Part shown: positions 5,330 to 21,239 of the stretch, piece after piece | How positions within the stretch are numbered: the first letter of the stretch is position 1 | Layout of the letters: each line of letters starts with the position of its first letter | Virus record (IMG/VR): IMGVR_UViG_3300008261_000178 | Coordinates: 1 to 26,229 of that record | Strand: one strand, 5' to 3' | Origin: a virus | DNA length: 26,229 nucleotides | The notes under the pieces: model-generated | Database searches by the model: none | Told to the model about the DNA's origin: nothing | What the model saw: only the letters and a program-made list of their open reading frames with translations | Program-made: the position numbers and the translations under genes

Positions 5330-6931
5330 CTAAAGTGGATTTTTGGTACTGGAACGAATATTATGTGCCCCAATCGGCACTTTTCCTTCCCCAACATCAC
5401 TCATAAGGTGCTGTTCCCACCACATAAGACTATTTTTAGGTACAACAGTGTCCCCACGGTACTCAGGAAGCCAAACATACTTCAACATTTGGTTACAAAT
5501 AGCCAAAGACATCGTTCTGTCGTCATGTGGGCTACCAGCCATCTTTCCGTTGTCCTTGCGTACATAGGTACGCAACTCGGCAATGGTCTTAAAACAGTAC
5601 ACAACCACATCTTCGTTGCGTAAAGCCGCAACTAACTCGTCAATAGCCAAAGGTTTAGTCGTACTAGTGGTTCTCCAACCCAAAGTTTCAGTTTGGGTTG
5701 GGTTACGCATGGACAACTTACGCTGGCGGTAAATGTTTTTGTATCCAGACCGCTGAGCAGCCTTAATGGTCGTCAAACCATGGTTGTTGGACTCAATGCC
5801 CAATAGTGCCTGATTATACCACCATGATAAATCAGCCAATAGTTCACCAAATAGGTCTGGTTCAATATGTCCATGCCAGTGTGCCACAACTTCACCTGTT
5901 GTAGCGTTTACAATGTGAGCAGAACTGTAGTCACCGTGCGATAAACCTTCCGCCACATCAGCCCCGACCACATAAACTCCTTCAGGTCGTGGATAATCCC
6001 AAATAGACAACGGACCATCATCGCCGTCACGGAACTCATAGTTACGGTCAGAGTAAACATGCAGATACCCAACATCAGGGTCAATCACACCCATAGCATC
6101 CAACAAGTCCACATCAAATACAGGGTTACCTGACTTAACAAATGCTTCTTCAGGGCTACGGGGGTATTCCTGATGTAACTGCCAAGACTGCATGTTGCGT
6201 GACTTTACCGCATACCAGTCTTCGTCACGGTCACCAGCAGACCAAGGAAAGAAAATACCCACAAACTGGTTAGTACCAGTTTGTGAACCAACCCACATCT
6301 GATGAAAAAAGTTACCAGAACCATTAGCAGTGGACAAGCCGATGACTCGTCCGCCGACATCGGCAATAGGTTCAATAGAAGCCCACGCTTCTTCAGGGTT
6401 AGGTAAGAAAGCCCATTCGTCAACAATAACCAAATACACAGACTCACCACGAGCAGGGTCAGAACCAGATGGCAAAGATTCAATAGCAGACTCGTTATCA
6501 AACATCATTTTCTGCTGATGGTCCGTGGTTTGACGGGGACCCCGTTCTTTCATCCACTGCGGAATAAAACGATACCCATACTTAGATTTAGCAAGCAACT
6601 TAACCGATTCACGCTCGGTACGAGACAACATAACAACAAAACGGTCAGGCTGAAAGAATACCAACCAAAAAGCGTATGCAGCCGCTAGTGTGGAGAAACC
6701 AATCTGTCGTGCTTTAAGAACAATACTATAGCGTTCCGACATCCAAGTTTCCATAGTTTCAATCTGCGCTTCACGCATCTCAAAAAGAATACGACCCTTT
6801 TCAGGATGTTTAATATACCAGTAATGTTCACAAAAATAAATGAACGCATCCAGTTGTTCATCCAAAGTGGCGTTATCGGGTCCACGGCAAAGTCGCCATT
6901 CCCGTTCGTTAATTAATGCTTGAAGGTCCAT
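5330..6931 (-). CDS. Terminase large subunit
   Basis: A 533-residue DNA-packaging motor. The N-terminal ATPase has a Walker A-like element (KARQIGFST, 73-81), Walker B (YLVIVDEW, 166-173, with catalytic Glu172) and the coupling motif GLSTANG (198-204). The C-terminal RNase H-fold nuclease shows its acidic residues: Asp325 in VVGADVAEG, Glu380 in LGIESNNHG and Asp470/Asp471 in PHDDRT. Length and layout are normal. It begins 2 nt after the fibre gene's stop and lies downstream of the small terminase in the same leftward run. Confidence 0.93.
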   Translation of the reverse strand: MDLQALINEREWRLCRGPDNATLDEQLDAFIYFCEHYWYIKHPEKGRILFEMREAQIETMETWMSERYSIVLKARQIGFSTLAAAYAFWLVFFQPDRFVVMLSRTERESVKLLAKSKYGYRFIPQWMKERGPRQTTDHQQKMMFDNESAIESLPSGSDPARGESVYLVIVDEWAFLPNPEEAWASIEPIADVGGRVIGLSTANGSGNFFHQMWVGSQTGTNQFVGIFFPWSAGDRDEDWYAVKSRNMQSWQLHQEYPRSPEEAFVKSGNPVFDVDLLDAMGVIDPDVGYLHVYSDRNYEFRDGDDGPLSIWDYPRPEGVYVVGADVAEGLSHGDYSSAHIVNATTGEVVAHWHGHIEPDLFGELLADLSWWYNQALLGIESNNHGLTTIKAAQRSGYKNIYRQRKLSMRNPTQTETLGWRTTSTTKPLAIDELVAALRNEDVVVYCFKTIAELRTYVRKDNGKMAGSPHDDRTMSLAICNQMLKYVWLPEYRGDTVVPKNSLMWWEQHLMSDVGEGKVPIGAHNIRSSTKNPL

Positions 6932-10838: not shown

Positions 10839-10873
10839 AAAAAAAGACCCCCACCCCCATGGGGGCTTTTTTA
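10839..10873 (+). terminator. Rho-independent terminator, likely bidirectional
   Basis: An A7 run and G (10839-10846), CCCCCA (10848-10853), a 6-nt loop, TGGGGG (10860-10865) and CTTTTTT (10866-10872) form a long stem with T-runs on both strands. It closes the small rightward operon ending with the DUF6321-like gene. Confidence 0.85.
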
Positions 10874-10942
10874 TGCCCCCTATCCCCAAACCCCAAAATA
10901 CAACGCATCGGCTATGGCATAGATACTACTTTAGCACTCGTG

Positions 10943-10971
10943 CCCCCGTACCCCCCCGTGCCCCCCTGCCC
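10943..10971 (-). other. Potential G-quadruplex on the minus strand
   Basis: Four C-runs on the plus strand (10943-10947, 10951-10957, 10961-10966, 10969-10971) are separated by 2-3 nt. The minus strand therefore has four G-runs of 3-7 with short loops, the standard G4 pattern. It is next to the terminator in the gene-free region. Confidence 0.55.
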
Positions 10972-11130
10972 GTGTGTGGCTAGAGTGTTGATGACCAATG
11001 GATAAAGGTGCTTTATACCTTAAATGATTATGGTTAATACGACTTTAAACCCCCCAATGCGGGCGTATGCGGGCGTGATTACCCGTGTGTGCGATGGTGT
11101 GCGCCTATGTGTGTTTTTCCTGCGACATGT

Positions 11131-11159
11131 GTCACCGTGTGCATTATGCACGGGGTGAC
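11131..11159. repeat. Long hairpin with GCATTATGC apex, copy 1
   Basis: The 29-nt near-palindrome has outer arms GTCACC/GGTGAC and inner arms GTGC/GCAC around the apex GCATTATGC. It is one of three hairpins in the window sharing that apex with different lower stems (others at 11428-11448 and 12026-12054). Confidence 0.6.
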
Positions 11160-11279
11160 GGTGTTTGGGGGTGACGGCTTCGCCGTATACCTGCGTGTGT
11201 GTGTGCTAAGTCGCCGACTGTTCCCAAATTTTTTTCCGTTATTTTGCAAGGGTTTGCGGGGGGTGAGAAAAATTAGTGG

Positions 11280-11309
11280 TTGACAAGTGGTGGAATTGCT
11301 GGTTATGGT
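11280..11309 (+). promoter_or_regulatory. Candidate early promoter
   Basis: A consensus -35 TTGACA (11280-11285) and TATGGT (11304-11309) are separated by 18 nt. It faces the hairpin-rich early block, and transcription would begin near 11316, leaving a leader of about 405 nt before the first gene. Confidence 0.55.
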
Positions 11310-11315
11310 GTTTGG

Positions 11316-11720
11316 CAACCTCATCGGTTCGCCGTTGAGAGTCGTACTCCCCGATAGTGGGGCGATAGAGGTACGGCACGACTAACGGGGTCACGGGATG
11401 TGTCCTTCGTTAGCGTATCTGGTGTCGCACTTTGCATTATGCCAAGTGTTGCTAGCGACGGGTATCGTAGATACCGCTAAGGGCAGAAGACACGGCGATA
11501 ATCCGTAGGATTAGACAGATAAGGTGTTTCTGTCCCCTACGGGGAGTTATCGTAAGTGACCTATTGTGGACGGTATTTATACCGTCCCACACGGACTCAG
11601 TAGCACGGACATTATCCGTGTAGGGTGCAATTCCCTTTCCGTGTACTACTACCTAACGGTAGTTAGGTGCTGGTTTAAGACTTGCACCGTCCTTAATCCC
11701 TACTATGAACGGAGTTCATA
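11316..11720 (+). ncRNA. Structured long leader or non-coding RNA
   Basis: Perfect nested stems fill this segment. GGTATC/GATACC (11461-11475) is one. A three-tier stem spans 11496-11552 (CGATAA/TTATCG, CCGTAGG/CCTACGG, ACAGA/TCTGT), followed by GACGGTAT/ATACCGTC (11569-11586). A three-way junction spans 11589-11644: ACACGGA/TCCGTGT closes a CACGGA/TCCGTG arm and an AGGG/CCCT arm with the 7-nt loop TGCAATT. Next is ACCTAAC/GTTAGGT (11651-11668). GGTGCAA (11624-11630) can pair with TTGCACC (11682-11688), either as a pseudoknot from the 7-nt loop or as an alternative fold. The three-way junction is tRNA-like, with no D-arm. Large phage RNAs such as GOLLD are a possible relative; this is unverified. 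The 5' end is inferred from the promoter. The final 24 nt are the first TCCCTACTA/hairpin element. Confidence 0.55.
11697..11720 (+). promoter_or_regulatory. TCCCTACTA plus Shine-Dalgarno hairpin, copy 1
   Basis: TCCCTACTA (11697-11705) is followed by the stem TATGAAC/GTTCATA (11704-11720) with loop GGA. The Shine-Dalgarno GGAG is split between loop and stem, and the stem abuts the ATG of the 92-residue gene. Confidence 0.65.
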
Positions 11721-11999
11721 ATGTCCCTGCTAGTTATCACCAACCCAGACGCTTTTCTGGAAGAAAAGCGTGCTTTGGGCTGGTTCATCTCTGATGAAGA
11801 GCGTTTCCTTGACCCTTGCTACCCTTTGGGTAGCGCAAACTGCACCGAGTATCACTTGTCTTCCGAACTTGGATACGAAGGTATCCTTTTCGTTGCTGTT
11901 GGTACGGGCTTCGTAGAAGCCGAGTTTATGCCGTTTGAAGTTCGTGCAGAATACTCAGATAGTGAGTATTACAACAACTATGGACGCTACGAAGACTAG
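11721..11999 (+). CDS. Hypothetical early protein, 92 aa
   Basis: An acidic, aromatic-rich protein (MSLLVITNPDAFLEEKRALG, ending EYYNNYGRYED), with no transmembrane segment and no motif I recognise. It is the first gene after the structured leader and starts right after a Shine-Dalgarno hairpin. Its DNA is itself built from inverted repeats, including ACGCTTTTC/GAAAAGCGT (11749-11771) and AATACTCA/TGAGTATT (11950-11970). Its TAG lies at the centre of an 18-bp perfect palindrome (11989-12006). High early expression is plausible from position; the function is unknown. Confidence 0.6.
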   Translation: MSLLVITNPDAFLEEKRALGWFISDEERFLDPCYPLGSANCTEYHLSSELGYEGILFVAVGTGFVEAEFMPFEVRAEYSDSEYYNNYGRYED

Positions 12000-12025
12000 T
12001 CTTCGTTTGTCCTTGCAACTAGTTT

Positions 12026-12054
12026 CCCACCGTGGGCATTATGCTCACGGTGGG
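12026..12054. repeat. Long intergenic hairpin with GCATTATGC apex
   Basis: CCCACCGTG (12026-12034) pairs with CACGGTGGG (12046-12054) around GGCATTATGCT, a 29-nt near-perfect hairpin between the first two early genes. There is no T-run, so it looks like an RNA-processing or stabilising element rather than a terminator. Confidence 0.6.
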
Positions 12055-12064
12055 AGTCACCTAA

Positions 12065-12088
12065 TCCCTACTAATGAACGGAGTTCAT
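12065..12088 (+). promoter_or_regulatory. TCCCTACTA plus Shine-Dalgarno hairpin, copy 2
   Basis: TCCCTACTA (12065-12073) is followed by ATGAAC/GTTCAT with loop GGA (12074-12088). Two bases then separate it from the ATG at 12090 of the AAA+ gene. Confidence 0.65.
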
Positions 12089-12089
12089 A

Positions 12090-13403
12090 ATGGCTAATAA
12101 AGCATCCACCATTCTAAGTATCAACTTAGAGACTGACCGTGTCACGGTTCAACCTTACGGTTGGAGCAAGGACAAGGTTGACCGTTTCACTTGGCTTGCC
12201 AAGGTTGACCGTATTCAAACTCTCAAGGCGATGGGAGTAACCTTTACAGGTTCTCCCATGCACCGCAAGGACTTTGAGTTGAACGCTTTCTACGAAAAGA
12301 AGAAAGAAGAGTTGCTCAAAAACGGTGTAACCGTTATTGAAGTTGGTGTTCGTCCGACACCACAACCAACACCACCGAAGGTGGAGAAAGAGAAGGCTCC
12401 AATGCCTACACAGCCACGAACCACCGAAGGTGGACTTGACGGGGCACTTCGTGCCATTGTTGAAGCCGTTATCGGGGACTTCGTCCCTGAATTGCCTAAG
12501 GATGAAATTGCTAACACCGTAAACGGTGCAATGGAAGGTTATGTCACCATTTTCAATGGTGTTGTTGAAGAAGTAACATCCTTGAAGGATGTTATTGCAA
12601 CTATGCAACCTAAGGTTACGGAAGTGAAACTTCCGTCTGGTGAAGTTCGCAAGTTGGACGGAGTCCAACACCATAACTTCAACAAGGTATTGTTGAACCT
12701 TCAATGCCGTGTCCCAACCTATTTGGTTGGTCCTGCAGGTACAGGCAAGTCAACCATTGCCGAGAACGCTTCTCAAGCCTTAGGGCTTGACTTTTATAGC
12801 AAGTCGTGTTCTAGTCAAGCCACGGAATCATCCCTATTGGGATATATGTCGGCTACGGGGCAGTATGTCGGAACAGGGTTCCGAACAGCGTTTGAGTTTG
12901 GTGGAGTTTATCTACTTGATGAAGTAGATAACGGTAACGCTAATGTGCTTACGGTGTTGAACTCCGCTTTAGCGAATACCTTTATGGCTTTCCCCGATGG
13001 AATGGTGAAGCGTCACAAGGACTTCGTCCTTGTTGCTACGGCGAATACCTTCGGTCATGGTGCTACCGCCGAGTATGTGGGTCGTAATCCTTTGGATGCG
13101 GCTTTTCTTGACCGTTTCGCTAGTGTCGTTATCGGTTACGATAACGCTATTGAAGAAGCGATGCTTAATGCGGTTGGCTTGGAGCCAACGGTATCGGCTA
13201 AGTGGCTCAACATCGTCCGTATGGCACGACAGAATGTGGAGAACTACGGCTTGCGTGTCGTGGTTTCACCACGAGCCACTGTTAACGGTGCCAAACTTCT
13301 CAAGGGTGACGCTTACACCATGAAAGAACTTGTAGACACAGTTCTTCTCAAGGGTGCGAAGCCTGAAGTTGCCGACAAGGTTATGATGGGTGTGGCACTT
13401 TAG
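12090..13403 (+). CDS. AAA+ ATPase, MoxR/CobS type
   Basis: A 437-residue protein. The N-terminal 85 residues form a small mixed domain, then a Pro-rich linker (about 88-110) and a helical segment (115-175) lead to the ATPase. There, Walker A is GPAGTGKS (214-221), Walker B is VYLLDEVD (273-280), sensor 1 is ATANT (316-320) and the arginine finger is in LDRF (340-343). This matches MoxR/CobS-type AAA+ proteins that remodel or insert metals into partners, usually with a von Willebrand A-type partner. The next gene is a likely partner. The stop codon lies in the loop of a 9-bp hairpin (13390-13411). The target is unknown. Confidence 0.85.
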   Translation: MANKASTILSINLETDRVTVQPYGWSKDKVDRFTWLAKVDRIQTLKAMGVTFTGSPMHRKDFELNAFYEKKKEELLKNGVTVIEVGVRPTPQPTPPKVEKEKAPMPTQPRTTEGGLDGALRAIVEAVIGDFVPELPKDEIANTVNGAMEGYVTIFNGVVEEVTSLKDVIATMQPKVTEVKLPSGEVRKLDGVQHHNFNKVLLNLQCRVPTYLVGPAGTGKSTIAENASQALGLDFYSKSCSSQATESSLLGYMSATGQYVGTGFRTAFEFGGVYLLDEVDNGNANVLTVLNSALANTFMAFPDGMVKRHKDFVLVATANTFGHGATAEYVGRNPLDAAFLDRFASVVIGYDNAIEEAMLNAVGLEPTVSAKWLNIVRMARQNVENYGLRVVVSPRATVNGAKLLKGDAYTMKELVDTVLLKGAKPEVADKVMMGVAL

Positions 13404-13426
13404 TGCCACACTCATTACCCCAATTA

Positions 13427-13452
13427 TCCCTACTATTGAAACGGAGTTTCAA
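13427..13452 (+). promoter_or_regulatory. TCCCTACTA plus Shine-Dalgarno hairpin, copy 3
   Basis: TCCCTACTA (13427-13435) is followed by TTGAAAC/GTTTCAA with loop GGA (13436-13452), directly abutting the ATG at 13453. Compared with copy 1, several stem bases differ on both sides and still pair. Confidence 0.68.
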
Positions 13453-14328
13453 ATGAGAATTATAAACGAAACTAACAATAAGGCTATGCCTAAAGGTAAG
13501 AAACTGCATTGTGAGTTATTTAACTCACTAGGTGAGTTCATTAAGTATGCCCAAACTAATCCTAATACGGGTTCTTCGGATAAGAAGTACGATGAAGAAT
13601 GGCACGGACCACACGCCAGAACACTAAAGGCTACTTGCGAATTAGCAACCGAAGGTTGGACTGAGTTGCGTCCACAAGTTGATAACATCCTTACGGATGT
13701 TACTGAACGACTTGCCGATAGATTATCGGAACTTTATAAACCAACTTACGACTTTGGCGGAGCCTATGTGGATATGGGGCGTTTCGTGGAAGGTGACCCC
13801 GAATGTATGGTGAACTTTTCCGCTAGTGCCGATAAGTCTATCGGCAGAGTTATTAAGGTTGTCGTTGCAGGAACTGCAAGTTGTTACATTACTGCCGAAT
13901 GGCTTATGAAGCGTGGCATTGCGGTGTTGTCGCTTATTGATACCATCAATAAACTCGGCTTTGGTGTTGAGTTGTGGTGGGATTCCACGGTATCGGGTGA
14001 CGGCGGTAACGCTTATAGTACGGCAGTGAAACTGCACGACTCGGCGGATACTTTGGACATTAACTCCGTTATGTTTGCTTTGGCTCATCCTTCAATGTTG
14101 CGCCGTCTAACATTCTCTGTTCAAGAACAGAGCGAAACCGCTAACCAACAACACGCCACAATGGGAAGTGGCTATGGCTCACCCCATAAAATGGGGTTGC
14201 CTATGGTTGACGAGTACGATGTAATCGTGGAGAAACTTCAGGACGGTAGCGGTGACATTGTCCGTGACCCTATGGGTTGGGTTATGCAAACTCTCAAGGG
14301 GATGGAACTTATTCCATCCGACATTTAA
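13453..14328 (+). CDS. Putative partner of the AAA+ ATPase (DUF7192/vWA-like)
   Basis: A 291-residue protein beginning MRIINETNNKAMPKG. I recall similar proteins next to MoxR/CobS-type ATPases in phages (DUF7192, from memory). Residues 130-180 have the strand-helix-strand rhythm of a von Willebrand A fold: VIKVVVAGTASCYITAEW, then RGIAVLSLIDTINKLGFGVE. The metal-site motif DxSxS is not present at the expected place (AGTAS instead). An N-terminal region reads LHCELFNSLGEFIKYAQ. It probably forms a functional pair with the upstream ATPase. The ATG at 13453 follows a Shine-Dalgarno hairpin, so I prefer it to an earlier frame extension. Confidence 0.6.
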   Translation: MRIINETNNKAMPKGKKLHCELFNSLGEFIKYAQTNPNTGSSDKKYDEEWHGPHARTLKATCELATEGWTELRPQVDNILTDVTERLADRLSELYKPTYDFGGAYVDMGRFVEGDPECMVNFSASADKSIGRVIKVVVAGTASCYITAEWLMKRGIAVLSLIDTINKLGFGVELWWDSTVSGDGGNAYSTAVKLHDSADTLDINSVMFALAHPSMLRRLTFSVQEQSETANQQHATMGSGYGSPHKMGLPMVDEYDVIVEKLQDGSGDIVRDPMGWVMQTLKGMELIPSDI

Positions 14329-14346
14329 AGAAAGGTAAACATTATA

Positions 14347-14607
14347 ATGTTTAACAGATTACCTATTGTGAAACGGCTACGCCGTAACATTCACAACTTG
14401 CAGATTCTAGCAACGCAGTTGCAGAATCAGGTTGACGAAAAACATCAGGAAGTAATTGACCTAAAGGCTCAATTACATAATGCAGTCCATAAATACGAAC
14501 ACCGTATTGACCAACTCAAGGATGAGTTGTACGACCTAGACATTGCATACGAAAACCTATACCGTGCCTATAATCAGGCACAAGTATCCTTGAAAGGGGA
14601 CAAGTGA
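14347..14607 (+). CDS. Coiled-coil protein, 86 aa
   Basis: A basic N-terminus (MFNRLPIVKRLRRNIHNLQI) leads into a long heptad-patterned helix (about 15-80: QLQNQVDEKHQEVIDLKAQL and onward), predicting an oligomeric rod. An AAAGG ribosome site precedes the ATG. The DNA contains a nested hairpin, GATTCT-CAAC/GTTG-AGAATC (14403-14428). No family is recognised. It could be a scaffold or adaptor for the ATPase module just upstream. Confidence 0.6.
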   Translation: MFNRLPIVKRLRRNIHNLQILATQLQNQVDEKHQEVIDLKAQLHNAVHKYEHRIDQLKDELYDLDIAYENLYRAYNQAQVSLKGDK

Positions 14608-14849
14608 TGACCACTCAAACATCGCCAACTTATGTTGGCTTCCATAAAGAATCGGGGCTATGGGCTTTCAGTCCTAGTATGATAGGAAATGTTGACTTCG
14701 TATGGGATGTATCCCATTGGGGGTTTCAACAGATTCAGGACCTTATGGAATTGCCTAGCGATAAGGACCGACTAGTTTATCTAACTAGTCAGTTGGGTAT
14801 GCCGTTGGAAATGAATCGTGATTACCTTTCAGAATTGAAAGGTGAATAA
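14607..14849 (+). CDS. Hypothetical protein, 80 aa
   Basis: I start at the ATG at 14607, which shares a base with the previous stop (TGATG); a GTG at 14604 is possible. The sequence is TTQTSPTYVGFHKESGLWAF, with WDVSHWGFQQIQDLMELPSD and a C-terminus LKGE. It is soluble and aromatic-rich, with no recognised motif. Its last codons form a hairpin (CCTTTCA/TGAAAGG, 14825-14842) holding the next gene's ribosome site. Confidence 0.55.
   Translation: MTTQTSPTYVGFHKESGLWAFSPSMIGNVDFVWDVSHWGFQQIQDLMELPSDKDRLVYLTSQLGMPLEMNRDYLSELKGE
14825..14842 (+). promoter_or_regulatory. Hairpin that sequesters the next gene's ribosome site
   Basis: CCTTTCA (14825-14831), loop GAAT, TGAAAGG (14836-14842). The AAAGG Shine-Dalgarno of the membrane-protein gene at 14852 is fully paired unless ribosomes finishing the upstream gene open it, a classic coupling arrangement. 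Confidence 0.55.
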
Positions 14850-14851
14850 TT

Positions 14852-15109
14852 ATGAACACGGACAAACTTTGGGAATGGGGCGTAGCCCTATTTGGTTGGT
14901 TCTTCCTGCTGTCCCTGCTCCTAACGCTTAGGGAACAGTGGGTGGAAGACGAGATGATGACCGTGAACCTGATTATGGTTGTTGTTATGTTAGTAACAAC
15001 AGGGTTCTTTTTCTATGGCTTCGTGTTGGTGACTTATTGGATTTACATCCTAATAAAGGACAGCGACATTATCAGAACTATCCGTTCTCTATGGTGGAAA
15101 CGGAGATAA
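14852..15109 (+). CDS. Small membrane protein, 85 aa
   Basis: Two hydrophobic segments: LWEWGVALFGWFFLLSLLL (about 6-24) and a long one, TVNLIMVVVMLVTTGFFFYG and FVLVTYWIYILI (about 37-68), which may cross the membrane twice. A charged loop (REQWVEDEM) lies between, and the end is basic (IRSLWWKRR). It is probably an inner-membrane protein made early, perhaps altering the host membrane or acting as a superinfection-type protein. No family is recognised. Confidence 0.6.
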   Translation: MNTDKLWEWGVALFGWFFLLSLLLTLREQWVEDEMMTVNLIMVVVMLVTTGFFFYGFVLVTYWIYILIKDSDIIRTIRSLWWKRR

Positions 15110-15228
15110 CAACCGATAAACTAACTGCAGACAATAGTCTGCACCAACCAATTCCCGTTGGTTGCGTGATACATAGTGGACACCGCAGATGCTCGCTATG
15201 TGTCACGGAGTCAACGGCTCCAAACAAA
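15110..15228 (+). other. Intergenic chain of hairpins
   Basis: No gene is seen. Four consecutive perfect or near-perfect stems follow: TGCAGAC/GTCTGCA (15126-15143), CAACCAA/TTGGTTG (15145-15164), an 11-bp stem with one G-U pair (15166-15176 with 15196-15206), and GGAG/CTCC (15207-15221). They lead straight into the fourth TCCCTACTA element. The layout resembles a short structured leader, similar in style to the one at 11316-11720. Confidence 0.5.
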
Positions 15229-15250
15229 TCCCTACTAACCTGAAAGGTTA
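15229..15250 (+). promoter_or_regulatory. TCCCTACTA plus Shine-Dalgarno hairpin, copy 4
   Basis: TCCCTACTA (15229-15237) overlaps the stem TAACCT/AGGTTA (15236-15250) with loop GAA. The ribosome-binding AAAGG/AGG lies in the stem, and 4 nt separate it from the ATG at 15255. Confidence 0.58.
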
Positions 15251-15254
15251 CATT

Positions 15255-15896
15255 ATGTCATCAATTACCGTAGGATTATTCCTACCAAGCGGGGTTAATG
15301 TTGAACCCGAACCTATCTTCGTAGAAGATTATAAATCAATTCAGTCCGCCGTAGGCGGTACCTTTGACGCTATTACCACAAATTGTGGTATGGAAGAAAT
15401 GTTGTTCGTTGGTTATGTAAATGATGAGTTTCTCATCAACGGCATGGAGATGAACTATCTCGCAACTAATCTCTTCAAGCGTGAAATTCACGGCAACTGC
15501 GTAGTTGTGTGGGGCTTGTCGGAAGACGGCGAGTATGACGGCGACAACCACGACATTCCTGAAGGAGTATACGGAGTATTAGTTGACGGATTAACCGAAG
15601 GAACTGCTAGTGCTTATAACCTTGCGGTTAGTATGGCTACTATTTGCGACTTCGCCATTCAACACAACATCTCCGATGAAGAAACACTTGACCGTGCCAC
15701 TTTCACAATGTATGACTGTTCCACCAACGGTGACCGTTCATCAGAACGGTATAACAACGCTATGGCTACCCTAAAGGGTATGTTGGATGATGTTGCTACA
15801 TTTGCCGAAGATAATGCCGAAGGCATCGGTGAACTCAACGCAGACGAAATGCAACAAATTGCAGGCTTCTGCCGACATATGAACGAGATGCTTTAA
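15255..15896 (+). CDS. DUF3846-like protein, 213 aa
   Basis: Begins MSSITVGLFLPSGVNVEPEP, then KSIQSAVGGTFDAI, FVGYVNDEFLINGMEMNYLA and HGNCVVVWGLSEDGE. This matches the DUF3846 pattern (a VGG-type strand, an N..G-type centre and a final I.G..VV strand), common in phage and plasmid proteins of unknown function. The C-terminal 90 residues are acidic and helical. The ATG at 15255 is chosen for the hairpin element just before it; longer upstream frames run through the hairpin chain. It is coupled to the next gene (TAATG). Confidence 0.65.
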   Translation: MSSITVGLFLPSGVNVEPEPIFVEDYKSIQSAVGGTFDAITTNCGMEEMLFVGYVNDEFLINGMEMNYLATNLFKREIHGNCVVVWGLSEDGEYDGDNHDIPEGVYGVLVDGLTEGTASAYNLAVSMATICDFAIQHNISDEETLDRATFTMYDCSTNGDRSSERYNNAMATLKGMLDDVATFAEDNAEGIGELNADEMQQIAGFCRHMNEML

Positions 15897-16087
15897 TGGC
15901 TAATGCTATTAAAACACAAACAAACAACGGGGGGCGTAAGCCCCCTGTTCAGTTGTTTAAAGCAGGTATTTGGGTATGTCCACGGTGTAAAAACACCGTA
16001 GAGATTTTTATAAAAATGACGGCTCCGCCGTCGTGTAATAACCACATCGGTAAAGGAATTACCGTTATGGAATTGAAAGGAAAATAA
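15896..16087 (+). CDS. Small zinc-ribbon-like protein, 63 aa
   Basis: A CPRC knuckle (residues 28-31, in AGIWVCPRCKNTVEIF) and a later C..H pair (SCNNH) form a plausible zinc site. The N-terminus is polar (ANAIKTQTNNGGRKPP). It overlaps the previous stop by one base. Its DNA includes ACGGTGT/ACACCGT (15982-15999). It may be a nucleic-acid or protein adaptor. No family is recognised. Confidence 0.55.
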   Translation: MANAIKTQTNNGGRKPPVQLFKAGIWVCPRCKNTVEIFIKMTAPPSCNNHIGKGITVMELKGK

Positions 16088-16089
16088 TA

Positions 16090-16356
16090 ATGGAAACAGA
16101 AAACTACACCGAAGAACAGGCGTTGAAACTTATGTGGGAATTTGCCCATAAGTTTGGATGGAAGGGTGTAATGTTCACCCGTGATTATGTACGGCAAGCA
16201 GTCATTGACCATTATGGATGGTCAGAAAGCCTTGACGACAAGGTGGACGCTGTTATGTCTGGTCGTATGTGGGTGAAGGACCTTGAAGAAGCCATTGTTG
16301 GTGAAGGTATGGAGTGCATCTATGATGCAGTGAAAGAAACAGAACAGGAGCAATAA
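16090..16356 (+). CDS. Hypothetical acidic protein A of a paralogous pair
   Basis: An 88-residue helical protein: LMWEFAHKFGWKGVMFTRDY, then SLDDKVDAVMSGRMW, then ECIYDAVKETEQEQ. It aligns by eye with the gene at 16478 (KFG[W/F]KGV, LD..VDAVM, I.DAV). An AAAGG ribosome site precedes it. The function is unknown. The pair and the zinc ribbon between them suggest a three-gene unit. Confidence 0.6.
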   Translation: METENYTEEQALKLMWEFAHKFGWKGVMFTRDYVRQAVIDHYGWSESLDDKVDAVMSGRMWVKDLEEAIVGEGMECIYDAVKETEQEQ

Positions 16357-16358
16357 AA

Positions 16359-16478
16359 ATGGAAACAGAAGAGAAACGCTATTGTGACCAATGCGGTTAT
16401 GACCTAGCCGATTACGAGTTTGACGAAACCGTGTGCGGTGCTTGCCTATCGGCAATGGAAACAGGGGAGAAAGAATAA
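16359..16478 (+). CDS. Tiny zinc-ribbon protein, 39 aa
   Basis: CDQC (residues 9-12) and CGAC (about 26-29) give two CxxC knuckles in a 39-residue acidic protein (METEEKRYCDQCGYDLADYE). An AGGAG ribosome site lies just before the ATG, and its stop shares a base with the next ATG. The small size and regular cysteine spacing suggest a treble-clef or zinc-knuckle adaptor. Confidence 0.6.
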   Translation: METEEKRYCDQCGYDLADYEFDETVCGACLSAMETGEKE

Positions 16479-16780
16479 TGGACACTGAAACAATTCAATA
16501 CATTGAATCATTGGAATGTCCTGATACTGCGTATCGGGTTATAAAGGAACTTATGTATAAGTTCGGTTTCAAGGGAGTAGTTTGGTGCGCCGAAGACATT
16601 ATAACCGTCCTAGAGTCTAGGTTGGTGGAACCAACAGGTGAACTGTTGGATGCGGTTATGGCAACTAGAGAGTGGGATTACAGCATAGATGCTGTTGCCG
16701 ACTTATACGGTTGGGACTTTATTAGCGATGCCGTCACTAAAGTGACAGGTGTTGAAGATAACTATTTGGATGACCTTTAG
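16478..16780 (+). CDS. Hypothetical acidic protein B of the paralogous pair
   Basis: A 100-residue protein starting MDTETIQYIESLECPDTAYR. It contains ELMYKFGFKGVVWCAEDI, GELLDAVMATREW and LYGWDFISDAV, mirroring the gene at 16090. I take the ATG at 16478 rather than an earlier start, because of the GGGGAG ribosome site and the TAATG overlap with the zinc-ribbon gene. The function is unknown; it probably arose by duplication of the other copy. Confidence 0.6.
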   Translation: MDTETIQYIESLECPDTAYRVIKELMYKFGFKGVVWCAEDIITVLESRLVEPTGELLDAVMATREWDYSIDAVADLYGWDFISDAVTKVTGVEDNYLDDL

Positions 16781-16789
16781 GAGAAAGTT

Positions 16790-17023
16790 ATGGTTATGCA
16801 ACTGATTACAGTAGATGCGCCCGACATTGACGGGTATTATGAAGTGCAATACGCCAATGCGTATAAGGGATGGGTGGTAACTCGTTACCATAATGTCTTC
16901 AAATACGGTGGGCAATGCTCTATGGAATACGAACATGAAACTGTTTTCAGTTTCATTATTGAAGCACTAGAATGGTGTTTAGCAGATTATGACGAACTCA
17001 TTGAAGAAATAGGATACGACTGA
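16790..17023 (+). CDS. Hypothetical protein, 77 aa
   Basis: Starts MVMQLITVDAPDIDGYYEVQ, then YKGWVVTRYHNVFKYGGQCS, and an acidic helix at the C-terminus (EALEWCLADYDELIEEIGYD). AGGAG lies about 6 nt before the ATG. The strand-rich first half and helical second half suggest a small globular fold. No family is recognised. Its stop overlaps the next gene's ATG (TGATG). Confidence 0.55.
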   Translation: MVMQLITVDAPDIDGYYEVQYANAYKGWVVTRYHNVFKYGGQCSMEYEHETVFSFIIEALEWCLADYDELIEEIGYD

Positions 17024-17781
17024 TGGACATTGAAAATGAACTAGGATGCGGTGTTGCGGAACACGACTTGTCGTGTTTATGTGATGTTGTCATACCACAT
17101 GACATTGTTCCTATAACTAGGAACGGCGTACATGACATGTGGATGGGGCGTGAGTTGTGCGAATTGAAAGGTTATGGTGTCCCTTGGACACGGCAGACTA
17201 TCCTTGACTATCTGGTTGACCTTGAAACTTTTTATGATGCTTATCATTATTCCAAACACTCCCTTCAGGGGGAGAGTTTGCTTGAAATGGAACCTGTTGA
17301 GATTAACGATGACGACTCTCCGTTCGTTCAATGGGGTCAAGTGCGTGAAGTCGTGCAGTATGCCATGGACAAGTTCAACGATAGTCTCGTTGAGATTATG
17401 AACTACCACGAATTAGAACCACAGTTTCTAATGGACAGCCTAACGACAGGTAAGGCAGGTGACGGTTGGACTCAGGAACGCATAGCGGAACTAGACGAAC
17501 TGTTTATGGGTGATAATCTTAATTATCGGGAAATTGCCAGACAGTTAAATTTAACTGTTGCTATGGTGAACGGTATCCGCAAGTATTGGTCGGAACGCCG
17601 TGAGCGTTTGAAAGGCGGGGATAAACCCGCACAGAAAATGCTACACCAATTAGCGAAAGAAACAGAGTTAACTTCACGGGAAATTGTGGACATAGTCCAT
17701 AAAGAGTTCGGTAAACAATACAGCCCCACCGTAGTTAATAAGGTTCGTGAACGCCACCGCAAGAAACTAGCGGGTGCGTAA
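17023..17781 (+). CDS. HTH-containing regulator-like protein, 252 aa
   Basis: The N-terminal half (residues 1-145) is acidic with no recognised domain. The C-terminal half carries a clear helix-turn-helix: WTQERIAELDELFMGDN then LNYREIARQLNLTVAMVNGI, at about 148-186. A second HTH-like stretch follows near the end (SREIVDIVHKEFGKQYSPTV then NKVRERHRKK). The double HTH and basic tail suggest a DNA-binding regulator. It is the last gene before the repeat-rich region at 17788-17870, a possible binding site. The early-to-middle switch is one possible job (inference). Confidence 0.6.
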   Translation: MDIENELGCGVAEHDLSCLCDVVIPHDIVPITRNGVHDMWMGRELCELKGYGVPWTRQTILDYLVDLETFYDAYHYSKHSLQGESLLEMEPVEINDDDSPFVQWGQVREVVQYAMDKFNDSLVEIMNYHELEPQFLMDSLTTGKAGDGWTQERIAELDELFMGDNLNYREIARQLNLTVAMVNGIRKYWSERRERLKGGDKPAQKMLHQLAKETELTSREIVDIVHKEFGKQYSPTVVNKVRERHRKKLAGA

Positions 17782-17787
17782 CACATA

Positions 17788-17870
17788 ACTATACACTATA
17801 GACAGTATTGGCAGGGACAATGGAACAGTGACAATAGACTGTCCTTGTCCGTGCTATACTGTCCCTGTAA
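17788..17870 (+). promoter_or_regulatory. Repeat-rich promoter/operator region upstream of the nuclease gene
   Basis: CAGGGACA (17812-17819) and TGTCCCTG (17860-17867) are inverted copies. ACAGTAT (17802-17808) and ATACTGT (17856-17862) are another inverted pair overlapping it. GACTGTCC and GACA/TGTC half-sites recur between them. TATACT (17855-17860) could be a -10 element, but I see no good -35. This looks like a regulated promoter starting the replication genes. Confidence 0.4.
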
Positions 17871-17900: not shown

Positions 17901-18800
17901 ATGAGAATAGACCATCACGCTGGCGTTATTTATTTGCGCCAATCGTGGCTAAACGACAGCATTATCTGTCCTGAAAGGTCACGGTTCAAACTAGCGAAAC
18001 CTGAGTTGTCGGGTCCGAGCGATGCGACCATTATGGGTACAGCAATTCACTATGGAATTGAGACTATCCTTGGCGGTGGCAACCCTGATGAAATGGTTGA
18101 CACCGTATTAGAACATTGGGAAATGCTAAAACAACAACCATATAAGGTTACTAACCTTGATATGGATAAAGCCGTCGCCCAGATAGGCGGTATGTGTGAA
18201 GCGTTCAAAACGCAGATTATGCCTGAAGTTACCTTCGGTGGTCAGGTTGAGATGCGTTTCAGTTTCCCGCTTGGTCTAACCATTGGCGAGTATGACATTT
18301 GGTGCGAAGGCACTATGGATTACATTGACCCTAATGGTGTTGTGTGGGACTGGAAAACAGCGTCCCGTCCTTATTATATGAAGGAGAAACAGTCACAATC
18401 TATTCAGGCTACAGTTTATTGTGCCGCAGCGGTTGACCGTTTGATGACTAAGTATCCTGCCGAGTTCCGTTATGGCGTTATGGTACGCCAAGAAAAACCT
18501 AAAGCCCAAATCGGTATTCTTCGCCGTACCGAAGAACACCAGCAGTGGCTTATTCATAATGTGAAACCAGTAATCCAAACTGCCCTTGTTATGGGCACGG
18601 ACAGAAACTGGCTTATGAACGACACCAGTGCGCTATGTAGCGAAAAGTGGTGCGACTATTGGAGTATGTGTAAAGGCGCATTTGTCAGCCCGAATGGACT
18701 GTCCTTGCCCTTACAGGAAACTCCAGTGACATTGACAGAACCAGTATCTGATACAGTGTCAACCAACTACTCAACAAAGGAGAGTACAAATGGTCAATAA
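17901..18800 (+). CDS. Cas4/RecB-family PD-(D/E)XK nuclease with iron-sulphur cysteines
   Basis: A 299-residue exonuclease-like protein. Signatures: Cys23 in IICPERSRFK, His50 in GTAIHYG, Asp140 in EGTMDYID, and Asp150-Trp-Lys152-Thr. A helix with SQSIQATVYC follows, then Cys246, Cys251 and Cys257 in CSEKWCDYWSMC. The four cysteines (one N-terminal, three C-terminal) are the arrangement of Cas4- and AddB-type nucleases with a 4Fe-4S cluster. It likely resects DNA ends for recombination-dependent replication. A GGAG ribosome site precedes the ATG. It is not beside a CRISPR array, so it is a phage recombination nuclease, not an immunity gene. Confidence 0.82.
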   Translation: MRIDHHAGVIYLRQSWLNDSIICPERSRFKLAKPELSGPSDATIMGTAIHYGIETILGGGNPDEMVDTVLEHWEMLKQQPYKVTNLDMDKAVAQIGGMCEAFKTQIMPEVTFGGQVEMRFSFPLGLTIGEYDIWCEGTMDYIDPNGVVWDWKTASRPYYMKEKQSQSIQATVYCAAAVDRLMTKYPAEFRYGVMVRQEKPKAQIGILRRTEEHQQWLIHNVKPVIQTALVMGTDRNWLMNDTSALCSEKWCDYWSMCKGAFVSPNGLSLPLQETPVTLTEPVSDTVSTNYSTKESTNGQ

Positions 18801-20345: not shown

Positions 20346-21239
20346 ATGGAAAATACAACACGGTTCATTAAACTGTTCCGTGGTCGTGGAGATGTGTACG
20401 GCTCTGAAGAAGGGTCGTGCATCAAGTCACCATTAACCACGGATGTGTTCACATCCCACCTAGACGGGACCACACCTATTGGTGTGTACCCTATGGTGCC
20501 CATTAAGGGCGACTGGTACACAGTATGGGGATGCACGGACATTGACACAGGTGACCTGCAAGCAGCGAAAGATTTACGAGATGCATTTGCTGTCGCCAAT
20601 GTCCATGCCTTTATAGAAAAGTCAAGGTCTAAAGGTTATCATGTGTGGGTGTTCGCCACAGAGCCAGTGCTTGCACGGGATATGCGGCGTATGTTCCTAG
20701 CGTGTCATCAGGTTGTTGACTACCCTGCCCGTGAAGTAAACCCTAAACAGGAAACACTCGCAAGCACAAAACAATACGGCAACTATGTACGGCTTCCGTA
20801 CCCAAACTGTTCGGATTTATCCATTCCCAACAGGCGTGTCATCACAGACACGGAAGAACCGTATTCGTTTGACGAGTTTCTTAACATGGCAGAAGCCAGT
20901 CTGGTTTCACCAGAAACAATAACACGACTCGCTGGCTTTTATAAAGAACCACCCAAGTCCACACTGATTAACACTGACCACACCCAATGCGAATCCCTAC
21001 CTGACGCTATGCGTAAACTTAGCCCACTCGGCAAAGTTATTTGGCGTGACGGACCGTTAGAAGGTGGTGACCGTAGCCGTGCCCTAGCCAAGTTGGCACA
21101 CGAATGTGTACGAGCAGGATTAAACCCATCAGAAACCAAAGTTGTTTTGGTTGACGCTGATTTGCGGTGGGGTAAATACCACAGCAGGACTAACGGCGAA
21201 CTAGAAATTGATAAACTAGTGGCACGAGTATACACCTAA
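20346..21239 (+). CDS. Archaeo-eukaryotic-type primase (TOTE/PrimPol-like)
   Basis: A 297-residue protein with AEP primase signatures: Asp65 and Asp67 in WGCTDIDTGD, SRSKGYHVWVF (93-103, with His99) and EVNPKQ (130-135, with a third acidic residue). These are followed by YGNYVRLPYP, typical of primases in the TOTE-type group. The C-terminal 100 residues (LPDAMRKLSPLG onward) are helical and may contact the helicase. I use the ATG at 20346. It probably makes RNA or DNA primers, perhaps with polymerase activity. No other polymerase is visible in this window. Confidence 0.8.
   Translation: MENTTRFIKLFRGRGDVYGSEEGSCIKSPLTTDVFTSHLDGTTPIGVYPMVPIKGDWYTVWGCTDIDTGDLQAAKDLRDAFAVANVHAFIEKSRSKGYHVWVFATEPVLARDMRRMFLACHQVVDYPAREVNPKQETLASTKQYGNYVRLPYPNCSDLSIPNRRVITDTEEPYSFDEFLNMAEASLVSPETITRLAGFYKEPPKSTLINTDHTQCESLPDAMRKLSPLGKVIWRDGPLEGGDRSRALAKLAHECVRAGLNPSETKVVLVDADLRWGKYHSRTNGELEIDKLVARVYT

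Follow-up and report, generated by a model that had tools for sequence, protein, structure and literature searches.

Short perfect hairpins with DNA-like, strand-symmetric loops tile the early operon of a tailed phage

Genes and features of the early block

The window analysed here is the whole 26,229-nucleotide stretch (positions 1 to 26,229) of the IMG/VR virus record IMGVR_UViG_3300008261_000178. Its early block, in which every gene lies on the + strand, begins with a candidate early promoter (TTGACA-18-TATGGT, 11280–11309, + strand) and an untranslated, hairpin-dense leader (11316–11720, + strand), which carries hairpins at 11461–11475, 11499–11513, 11568–11587, 11604–11620 and 11651–11668 and a T-arm-like element (AGGG-TGCAATT-CCCT) near 11625–11641. 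A tRNA scan of the window found none and an Rfam scan gave no match. The leader ends in the hairpin TATGAACggaGTTCATA (11704–11720, + strand), which contains Shine-Dalgarno bases and abuts the ATG at 11721; hairpins at 12074–12088 and 13436–13452 repeat this arrangement before start codons.

The first early ORF (11721–11999, + strand, 92 aa) has no family match, and in the relative L003 its place is taken by an unrelated but likewise tiled sequence. The gene for an AAA+ ATPase (12090–13403, + strand, 437 aa; AAA_5, phrog_249 'porphyrin biosynthesis') is the most strongly tiled ORF, with 15–17 hairpins compared with 1.7–2.6 in codon shuffles (z = 10). Genes for a DUF7192 protein (13453–14328, + strand; phrog_1909) and a DUF3846 protein (15255–15896, + strand) carry 10 and 5 hairpins, respectively, where 1.4 and 0.8 are expected. 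The last tiled ORF (17023–17781, + strand), a weak match to helix-turn-helix regulators (phrog_323), has 7–8 hairpins compared with 0.5–1.0 in shuffles. The exonuclease gene (17901–18800, + strand) is the first untiled ORF past the block and marks its right boundary; with 1 hairpin against 0.8 in codon shuffles (loops of 3–5 nt), it stands at background.

Density, pairing and loops of the hairpins

Statistics of the sequence demonstrate that the hairpins are enriched and perfectly paired and that their loops are DNA-like and strand-symmetric. Counted per kb along the window as perfect stems of at least 6 bp with loops of 3–8 nt, the tiled block (11301–17800) holds 84, or 12.9 per kb, compared with 2.9 and 2.7 per kb in the flanks. 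The 1-kb bins from 11 to 17 kb contain 15, 14, 13, 12, 11, 12 and 8 stems, and nearly all other bins 1–5. The initial annotation, which described an early-gene block tiled from 11300 to 17800 through coding and non-coding DNA and much sparser hairpins elsewhere, was correct in both respects: its coordinates are good, and the two kinds of DNA within the block have similar densities (12 hairpins in 736 bp of non-coding and 65 in 5744 bp of coding sequence). Base by base, 15 of its 17 examples within the block proved perfect (6–9 bp, loops of 3–5 nt) and two did not stand as given: 16547–16564 pairs either as 8 bp with a 2-nt loop or as 7 bp with a 4-nt loop, and 16126–16155, listed as a small-loop hairpin, has an interior of 12 nt.

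Neither chance nor codon usage explains the tiling, as had been suspected. Dinucleotide shuffles of the block yield 8.4±2.7 stems of at least 6 bp (a 10-fold excess in the block), and the excess reaches 25–30-fold for longer stems (at least 7 bp, 50 observed and 1.9 in shuffles; at least 8 bp, 18 and 0.6), compared with a weak general excess of 2.3–2.4-fold for stems of at least 6 bp in the flanks. The 13 early ORFs carry 63 hairpins, whereas synonymous-codon shuffles give 6.4±2.4 (maximum 13 in 300 shuffles); for the seven late ORFs the figures are 18 and 8.1±2.8. A density no higher than that of the shuffles or of the structural arm, the outcome named beforehand as speaking against the tiling, is thus not what was found.

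With loops of 3–5 nt, 74 non-overlapping stems cover 1305 nt of the block (111 stems if those of at least 5 bp are admitted). The typical tile has arms of 6–8 bp and a spacer of 3–4 nt, and tiles are spaced at ~85 bases; examples are TTCAACAAggtaTTGTTGAA (12678–12697, within the ATPase gene), CGTTATCGgttaCGATAACG (13127–13146) and TGTTGTTAtgttagTAACAACA (14980–15001). Tiles start near 11.45 kb, the last lying at the end of ORF 17023–17781, and a search for helical phasing or fixed spacing among them found none.

Enrichment peaks at a spacer of 3 nt (20.8-fold) and is about 1.2-fold at 8 nt and 1.2-fold at zero spacer. The triloops GNA (60) and TNC (71; ~18 expected each) make up about half of all triloops and occur in matched pairs (GAA 27/TTC 35, GTA 22/TAC 18, GGA 10/TCC 9), and the loop-closing pair is mainly 5'-C-G-3'. 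On either strand alike, the loops of the block are of kinds that are stable in DNA. Both members of the GCA/TGC pair are low (1 and 9), and the depletion of GCA, which is expected to be stable in DNA, counts against a DNA hairpin. On the + strand T-rich loops are also commoner than A-rich ones (TTT 23, AAA 13), which argues against a purely two-strand DNA model, as such a model does not predict this excess. Stem GC equals background except in the two pairs nearest the loop; a background value is expected where stem pairs replace equal duplex pairs.

Eight leviviruses (ssRNA phages), analysed by the same method, served as the RNA calibration. Expressed as a ratio of excesses, single-wobble stems per perfect stem amount to 0.076 in the block and 0.92 in leviviruses (~12 times rarer in the block), in which stems with a single G.U are almost as frequent as perfect ones. 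Leviviruses favour GNRA tetraloops, whereas the block shows no such enrichment (8 observed, 11 expected), and they contain 2.5 perfect hairpins per kb against about 12 in the block at the same MFE excess. The sense RNA of the block has an MFE far below that of codon shuffles (z down to -10), and G.U is in slight excess over A.C. Mean folding excess is about equal on the sense and antisense strands of the block. We dropped the argument that this equality alone excludes RNA, because leviviruses themselves show only mild asymmetry (sense -5.68, antisense -4.70), which makes the strand-asymmetry test weak.

Conservation, confinement and loss among relatives

Comparative statistics likewise demonstrate that the tiles are conserved with compensation, confined to the region past the early promoter, fade along it and have been lost repeatedly. 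Between the window and L003, third positions of the block diverge by 0.073 within stems and by 0.171 elsewhere, compared with 0.152 and 0.136, respectively, outside the block. In the G010–G015 group, compensated changes at codon-position 3-3 pairs are roughly ten times as frequent as independence predicts. Among relatives, the comparison proposed as a check in the initial annotation, synonymous positions within stems are conserved and compensatory changes occur. Comparison of the window with its relatives shows tiles arising through spaced synonymous changes in both arms; tiles also occupy sequence found in one relative only, and where the window has tile 14980–15001, L003 shows another perfect hairpin, TTATCGTTAtgcTAACGATAA, with changed amino acids. 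Heavily tiled pairs of relatives show strong conservation of stems but lightly tiled ones weak conservation or none, which counts against selected DNA hairpins.

The same tiling is seen in about 35 related loci of IMG/VR, with early ATPase identity down to 38%, and has been lost about 4–5 times across the ATPase tree. Each of the 17 tiled phages encodes the AAA ATPase; a DUF7192 gene was called in 16 of them, as was a DUF3846 gene. The ATPase gene is also present in 14 untiled phages, and gene content was rejected as the cause of the difference, as no further gene correlates convincingly with tiling. Gordonia Kudefre, Tunturi_4 and Rhizobium P106B, which have the same ATPase, are untiled, and phiX174 shows no tiling (0–2 per kb). 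A helicase-based search for the host in 84,980 bacterial genomes gave no useful match.

Several relatives have a conserved form of the early promoter, TTGACA-N17/18-TATTGT. Tiling sets in ~190–250 nt past the early promoter (six genomes), peaks ahead of the ATPase gene and falls to background at about +5.5 kb; the minimum of cumulative GC skew, near 10.5–11.5 kb, is close to its start. Promoter strength was rejected as the switch, since among untiled genomes G004 and G005 have lost TTGACA but L192 and L193 have it.

Possible roles of the tiles

Selection apparently keeps the tiles via the DNA itself and not via messenger RNA. That the immediate-early operon of this family of uncultured phages is tiled by selected hairpins formed in the DNA of either strand seems to us an evenly balanced proposition; selection would build and maintain them mostly by synonymous changes. 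The functional state would be hairpins or cruciforms extruded from negatively supercoiled DNA, by analogy with the promoter hairpins of phage N4, for which such extrusion has been shown experimentally (PMC4496689). The N4 early (virion RNA polymerase) promoters are hairpins with a 5–7 bp stem and a 3-nt loop, a C:G closing pair and a required 5'-G and 3'-A in the loop, extruded by gyrase-driven supercoiling (PMC4496689). As in N4, a dsDNA phage here carries short perfect DNA hairpins in its early region, and the tiles share the 5–7 bp stem, G-N-A triloop and C:G closing pair as a statistical consensus. Unlike N4, where three hairpins of conserved sequence upstream of genes are read by its polymerase, there are ~74 non-overlapping tiles of arbitrary stem sequence, most of them within genes; they share no consensus and have no fixed N4-like promoter sequence beside them. 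In the search for a virion RNA polymerase, a ~1774-aa late protein had no match in Pfam, PHROGs or PDB sequences, which distant polymerases would escape, and a PF00940 search gave no T7/N4-type match, a weak negative as it gave none in control genomes either. Stems of 6–8 bp are short for cruciforms, and the N4 hairpins are their sole close precedent.

The most speculative part is a topological purpose. Spread over a heavily transcribed early operon, the tiles would serve as sinks of negative supercoiling; by simple arithmetic, 74 tiles at about 17.6 bp apiece would absorb ~125 turns, or a superhelical density of about 0.035 for a ~37 kb circle. In this way they would keep early DNA free of R-loops, or of silencing or defence proteins that require relaxed or regular duplex.

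Hairpins might instead be selected in single-stranded DNA intermediates, such as resected ends, recombination intermediates or the strand displaced at an origin close to 11 kb; their role there may be to obstruct nucleases, SSB or RecA or to flag sites of priming. This we consider unlikely: the loops would be of the same DNA type, the GC skew minimum and the gradient away from it would fit, and exposure of either strand would give symmetry, but at a single fork it is mainly one strand that is exposed, and GNA and TNC should then differ, the preference for the smallest loops and the indifference to stem GC better suit duplex replacement, and the onset follows the promoter and leader, not a mapped origin. 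Pervasive secondary structure with coevolving pairs is known from ssDNA and RNA virus genomes (PMC6993869); here, too, paired sites coevolve, often synonymously, but in a dsDNA tailed phage and within one operon with a gradient.

It is still less likely that early mRNA is selected as a string of small hairpins, whether for translation control, RNase protection or escape from an RNA-targeting defence. Since the tiling is aligned with the transcription unit, an RNA function would be natural too, and the block is an early transcription unit with co-oriented genes, Shine-Dalgarno bases in hairpin loops before several start codons, strong sense folding and the slight G.U excess. Against it, ssRNA phages show the opposite combination of fewer perfect hairpins, enriched GNRA and common G.U, and the loop preferences and folding excess of the block are mirrored on the antisense strand. 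The block thus resembles leviviruses and other genomes with ordered RNA structure (GORS-like) in distributed coding-sequence folding beyond codon shuffles, but its tiles are perfect, DNA-like and strand-symmetric; it lacks their frequent G.U pairs and RNA-stable loops (GNRA/UNCG) and, by the weak strand test, a larger folding excess on the sense strand. Two mechanisms offered by the initial annotation, folded early mRNA and protection from an RNA-targeting defence, find no support in these comparisons.

Its third, template switching, which might perfect quasi-palindromes at a high local rate with no need for function, we regard as improbable. This process, known to generate short inverted repeats without mismatches in coding sequence (PMC8604942), would yield perfect Watson-Crick stems, ordinary GC and strand symmetry. 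However, where hairpins differ between relatives, the changes fall binomially on both arms and are not concentrated in one (8 one-sided, 7.6 expected), none of 236 conserved hairpins (43 of them with changed loops) has an inverted spacer, stems are conserved instead of turning over in concert, and restriction to the early operon is left unexplained. Template switching is a suggested origin of the few long coding palindromes in mitochondria of Nematomorpha (mean arms of 43 bp, spacing ~37 bp; PMC6649704), which share with the tiles perfect inverted repeats within conserved coding DNA and dynamic gains and losses, but the tiles are short and numerous. The initial annotation is thus partly supported, its observation being right and its three mechanisms not. 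Finally, operators or stoperators of a sequence-specific dimeric protein would be palindromic, and an HTH protein is encoded at 17023–17781, but this can hardly be the answer, as tiles share no sequence and their arms, of background composition, vary freely with compensation.

We found no precedent for a tiled early operon. In the usual view, local structure is tolerated in coding DNA and structural selection acts on RNA; the statistics here point to DNA as the selected molecule across 5–7 kb of genes. Returning to hairpins formed in DNA, we give somewhat less than an even chance to the view that the whole operon is a DNA topological device, in which about 75 selected mini-cruciforms, written into coding sequence by synonymous choice, deeply maintained and repeatedly lost, would overlay the genes with a second code, one of DNA structure. 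As nature offers both tiled and untiled relatives that share these genes, together with partly decayed intermediates, function is directly testable by recoding, which could expose a new connection of early transcription in phages with DNA supercoiling and with silencing or defence in the host.

Hairpin density in the early block

The window (a 26,229-base IMG/VR record) represents a tailed dsDNA phage whose late genes, among them that for the terminase large subunit (5330–6931), lie on the minus strand; its early/replication arm is plus-strand and starts at ∼11.3 kb. The early block (11301–17800) encodes an AAA+ ATPase, a DUF7192 protein, a DUF3846 protein, small unknown ORFs and a weak HTH protein; genes for an exonuclease, a DnaB-type helicase, a primase and a RusA-type resolvase follow. 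Ahead of the early promoter, a non-coding, repetitive, GT- and C-rich stretch (10850–11270) coincides with the GC-skew minimum and is a candidate origin or packaging site; a similar stretch occurs in the untiled relatives G004 and G005.

Perfect stems ≥6 bp long that enclose 3–8 nt loops number 12.9 per kb in the block versus 2.9 and 2.7 per kb in its two flanks, which bears out the initial annotation that the block is denser in hairpins than the rest of the genome. Chance and codon usage are indeed insufficient to explain them: the excess over dinucleotide shuffles is 10-fold (25-fold for stems of at least 7 bp), and the 13 early ORFs contain 63 hairpins versus 6.4 ± 2.4 in synonymous-codon shuffles (late ORFs, 18 versus 8.1 ± 2.8). 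Fifteen of the 17 examples originally listed in the block are perfect hairpins with loops of 3–5 nt; the other two have other loop sizes. The primase gene (20346–21239) holds a second small cluster (5 hairpins versus 0.7 in codon shuffles, with 0 of 200 shuffles as high).

Tiling among related phages

Relatives were retrieved by ATPase protein (41 loci), by helicase (80) and by ATPase alignment (80, partially overlapping the first 41); all genomes except the controls are metagenomic contigs. Tiling with such inverted repeats was found in most loci with the ATPase cassette, starting ∼1 kb upstream of the ATPase gene and fading over 4–7 kb. Mean density in nine genomes rises from ∼1 per kb to 21 per kb immediately upstream of this gene and reaches background at ∼+5.5 kb; six genomes have a conserved promoter whose −35 element is 190–250 nt upstream of the first tile. 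Of the 49 sequences in the ATPase tree, ∼35 come from tiled loci (codon-shuffle z-scores up to 17.7), and four or five separate lineages are untiled or decaying; one example is the sister pair L174/L175, which falls within tiled phages. Thus, tiling is old, maintained and repeatedly lost. Comparable tiling was not described in the open-access literature searched, which does not prove the absence of any description.

A GenBank podovirus with the same cassette (MW202803) has a modest hairpin excess at 2.4–7 kb, owed partly to a repeated operator-like palindrome, TGTTTC-N4/5-GAAACA, a phenomenon distinct from tiling. The leader (11316–11720) carries a conserved tRNA T-arm-like element, a stem with the 7-nt loop TGCAATT, common to tiled and untiled phages; in G004 the element tops an acceptor-like helix, CCACACC...GGTGTGG (∼−530 to −440 from the ATPase start in the oriented contig). 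In the untiled pair L008/L009, the DNA upstream of the early region includes a tRNA-like sequence (anticodon GTT, Asn), ∼−1480 from the ATPase start. Hairpin loops with purine-rich Shine-Dalgarno-like bases adjoin the start codons of several early genes (11704–11720, 12074–12088, 13436–13452 and 15236–15250); the persistence of this arrangement (ATTTACggagGTAAAT) in untiled G004 and G005 suggests a separate translational role.

Probable selection on DNA hairpins

Selection is likely to act on the tiles as DNA hairpins. Spacer length peaks sharply at 3 nt, with no effect left by 8 nt, and stems have a neutral composition except for the two loop-proximal pairs, as would be favoured if hairpin pairs replaced duplex pairs. 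Extrusion from the duplex as the functional state is less certain, and its strongest rival is that the hairpins form in single-stranded replication or recombination intermediates.

Selection for folded early mRNA, as proposed in the initial annotation, is disfavoured by three tests calibrated on eight ssRNA phages (genomes rather than phage mRNAs). Related sequences are non-independent; each distinct hairpin was counted only once and redundant blocks were left out. Scaled to that of perfect stems, the excess of stems carrying a single internal G·U was 0.076 in tiled blocks versus 0.92 in ssRNA phages (A·C-containing stems, 0.048 versus 0.54). ssRNA phages have more tetraloops than triloops, with GNRA enriched (19 of 120) and GNA triloops rare (4 of 73), whereas tiled blocks have 457 triloops versus 255 tetraloops, no GNRA enrichment (8 observed, 11 expected) and enriched GNA triloops. 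With ribosome-binding-site hairpins set aside, GNA (60) is enriched to the same degree as TNC (71), its reverse complement, with agreement for each individual loop. Excess folding energy is equal on the sense and antisense strands of tiled blocks, a weak test on its own because ssRNA phages are only mildly asymmetric. Together, the wobble, loop and symmetry tests give the pattern of DNA hairpins on both strands. In pooled tiled blocks, GAA, GTA and GGA triloops are strongly enriched, whereas GCA is depleted (1 observed, 4.8 expected).

The window and its relative L003 diverge at third codon positions by 0.073 within stems, compared with 0.199 in loops and 0.171 in the remainder of the block; outside it, stems are not conserved (0.152 versus 0.136). 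Stem conservation is also strong in the pair G010/G012, there outside the block too; G008/G009, G011/G015 and G013/G014 show little or none. Where two third codon positions pair, compensated changes are numerous (in G010/G013, 7 compensated and 11 broken), ∼10 times our own estimate for independent changes. New tiles, as compared with a relative, involve third-codon-position changes in both arms. Sequence that one close relative has and the other lacks is likewise tiled, so the pressure is tied to the region rather than to particular genes. Template switching, also suggested initially, predicts changes confined to one arm and inverted spacers, and fails on both: 8 of 63 broken hairpins were one-armed versus 7.6 by binomial, in a test that loses power at high divergence, and 0 of 236 conserved hairpins had inverted spacers.

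Comparison with phage N4

The nearest physical precedent is the early promoter hairpin of phage N4, which has a 5–7 bp stem and a 3-nt loop and whose extrusion from gyrase-supercoiled DNA needs a loop with 5′ G and 3′ A and a C:G closing pair (PMC4496689). As a population, the tiles share this stem, loop and closing-pair consensus; unlike N4 promoter hairpins, they number ∼74, are mostly intragenic and have no common sequence, and no test supports them as promoters. A PF00940 search for RNA polymerase is uninformative because no control genome gave a match.

Since the tiles share the N4 consensus as a population yet are not promoters by any test, we propose that they are DNA hairpins extruded, or able to extrude, whose joint effect would be topological or protective in a heavily transcribed early operon. 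A topological purpose is a guess; it would account for why the tiles are confined to the early operon and form a gradient, why their stem sequence does not matter and why both strands show the same pattern.
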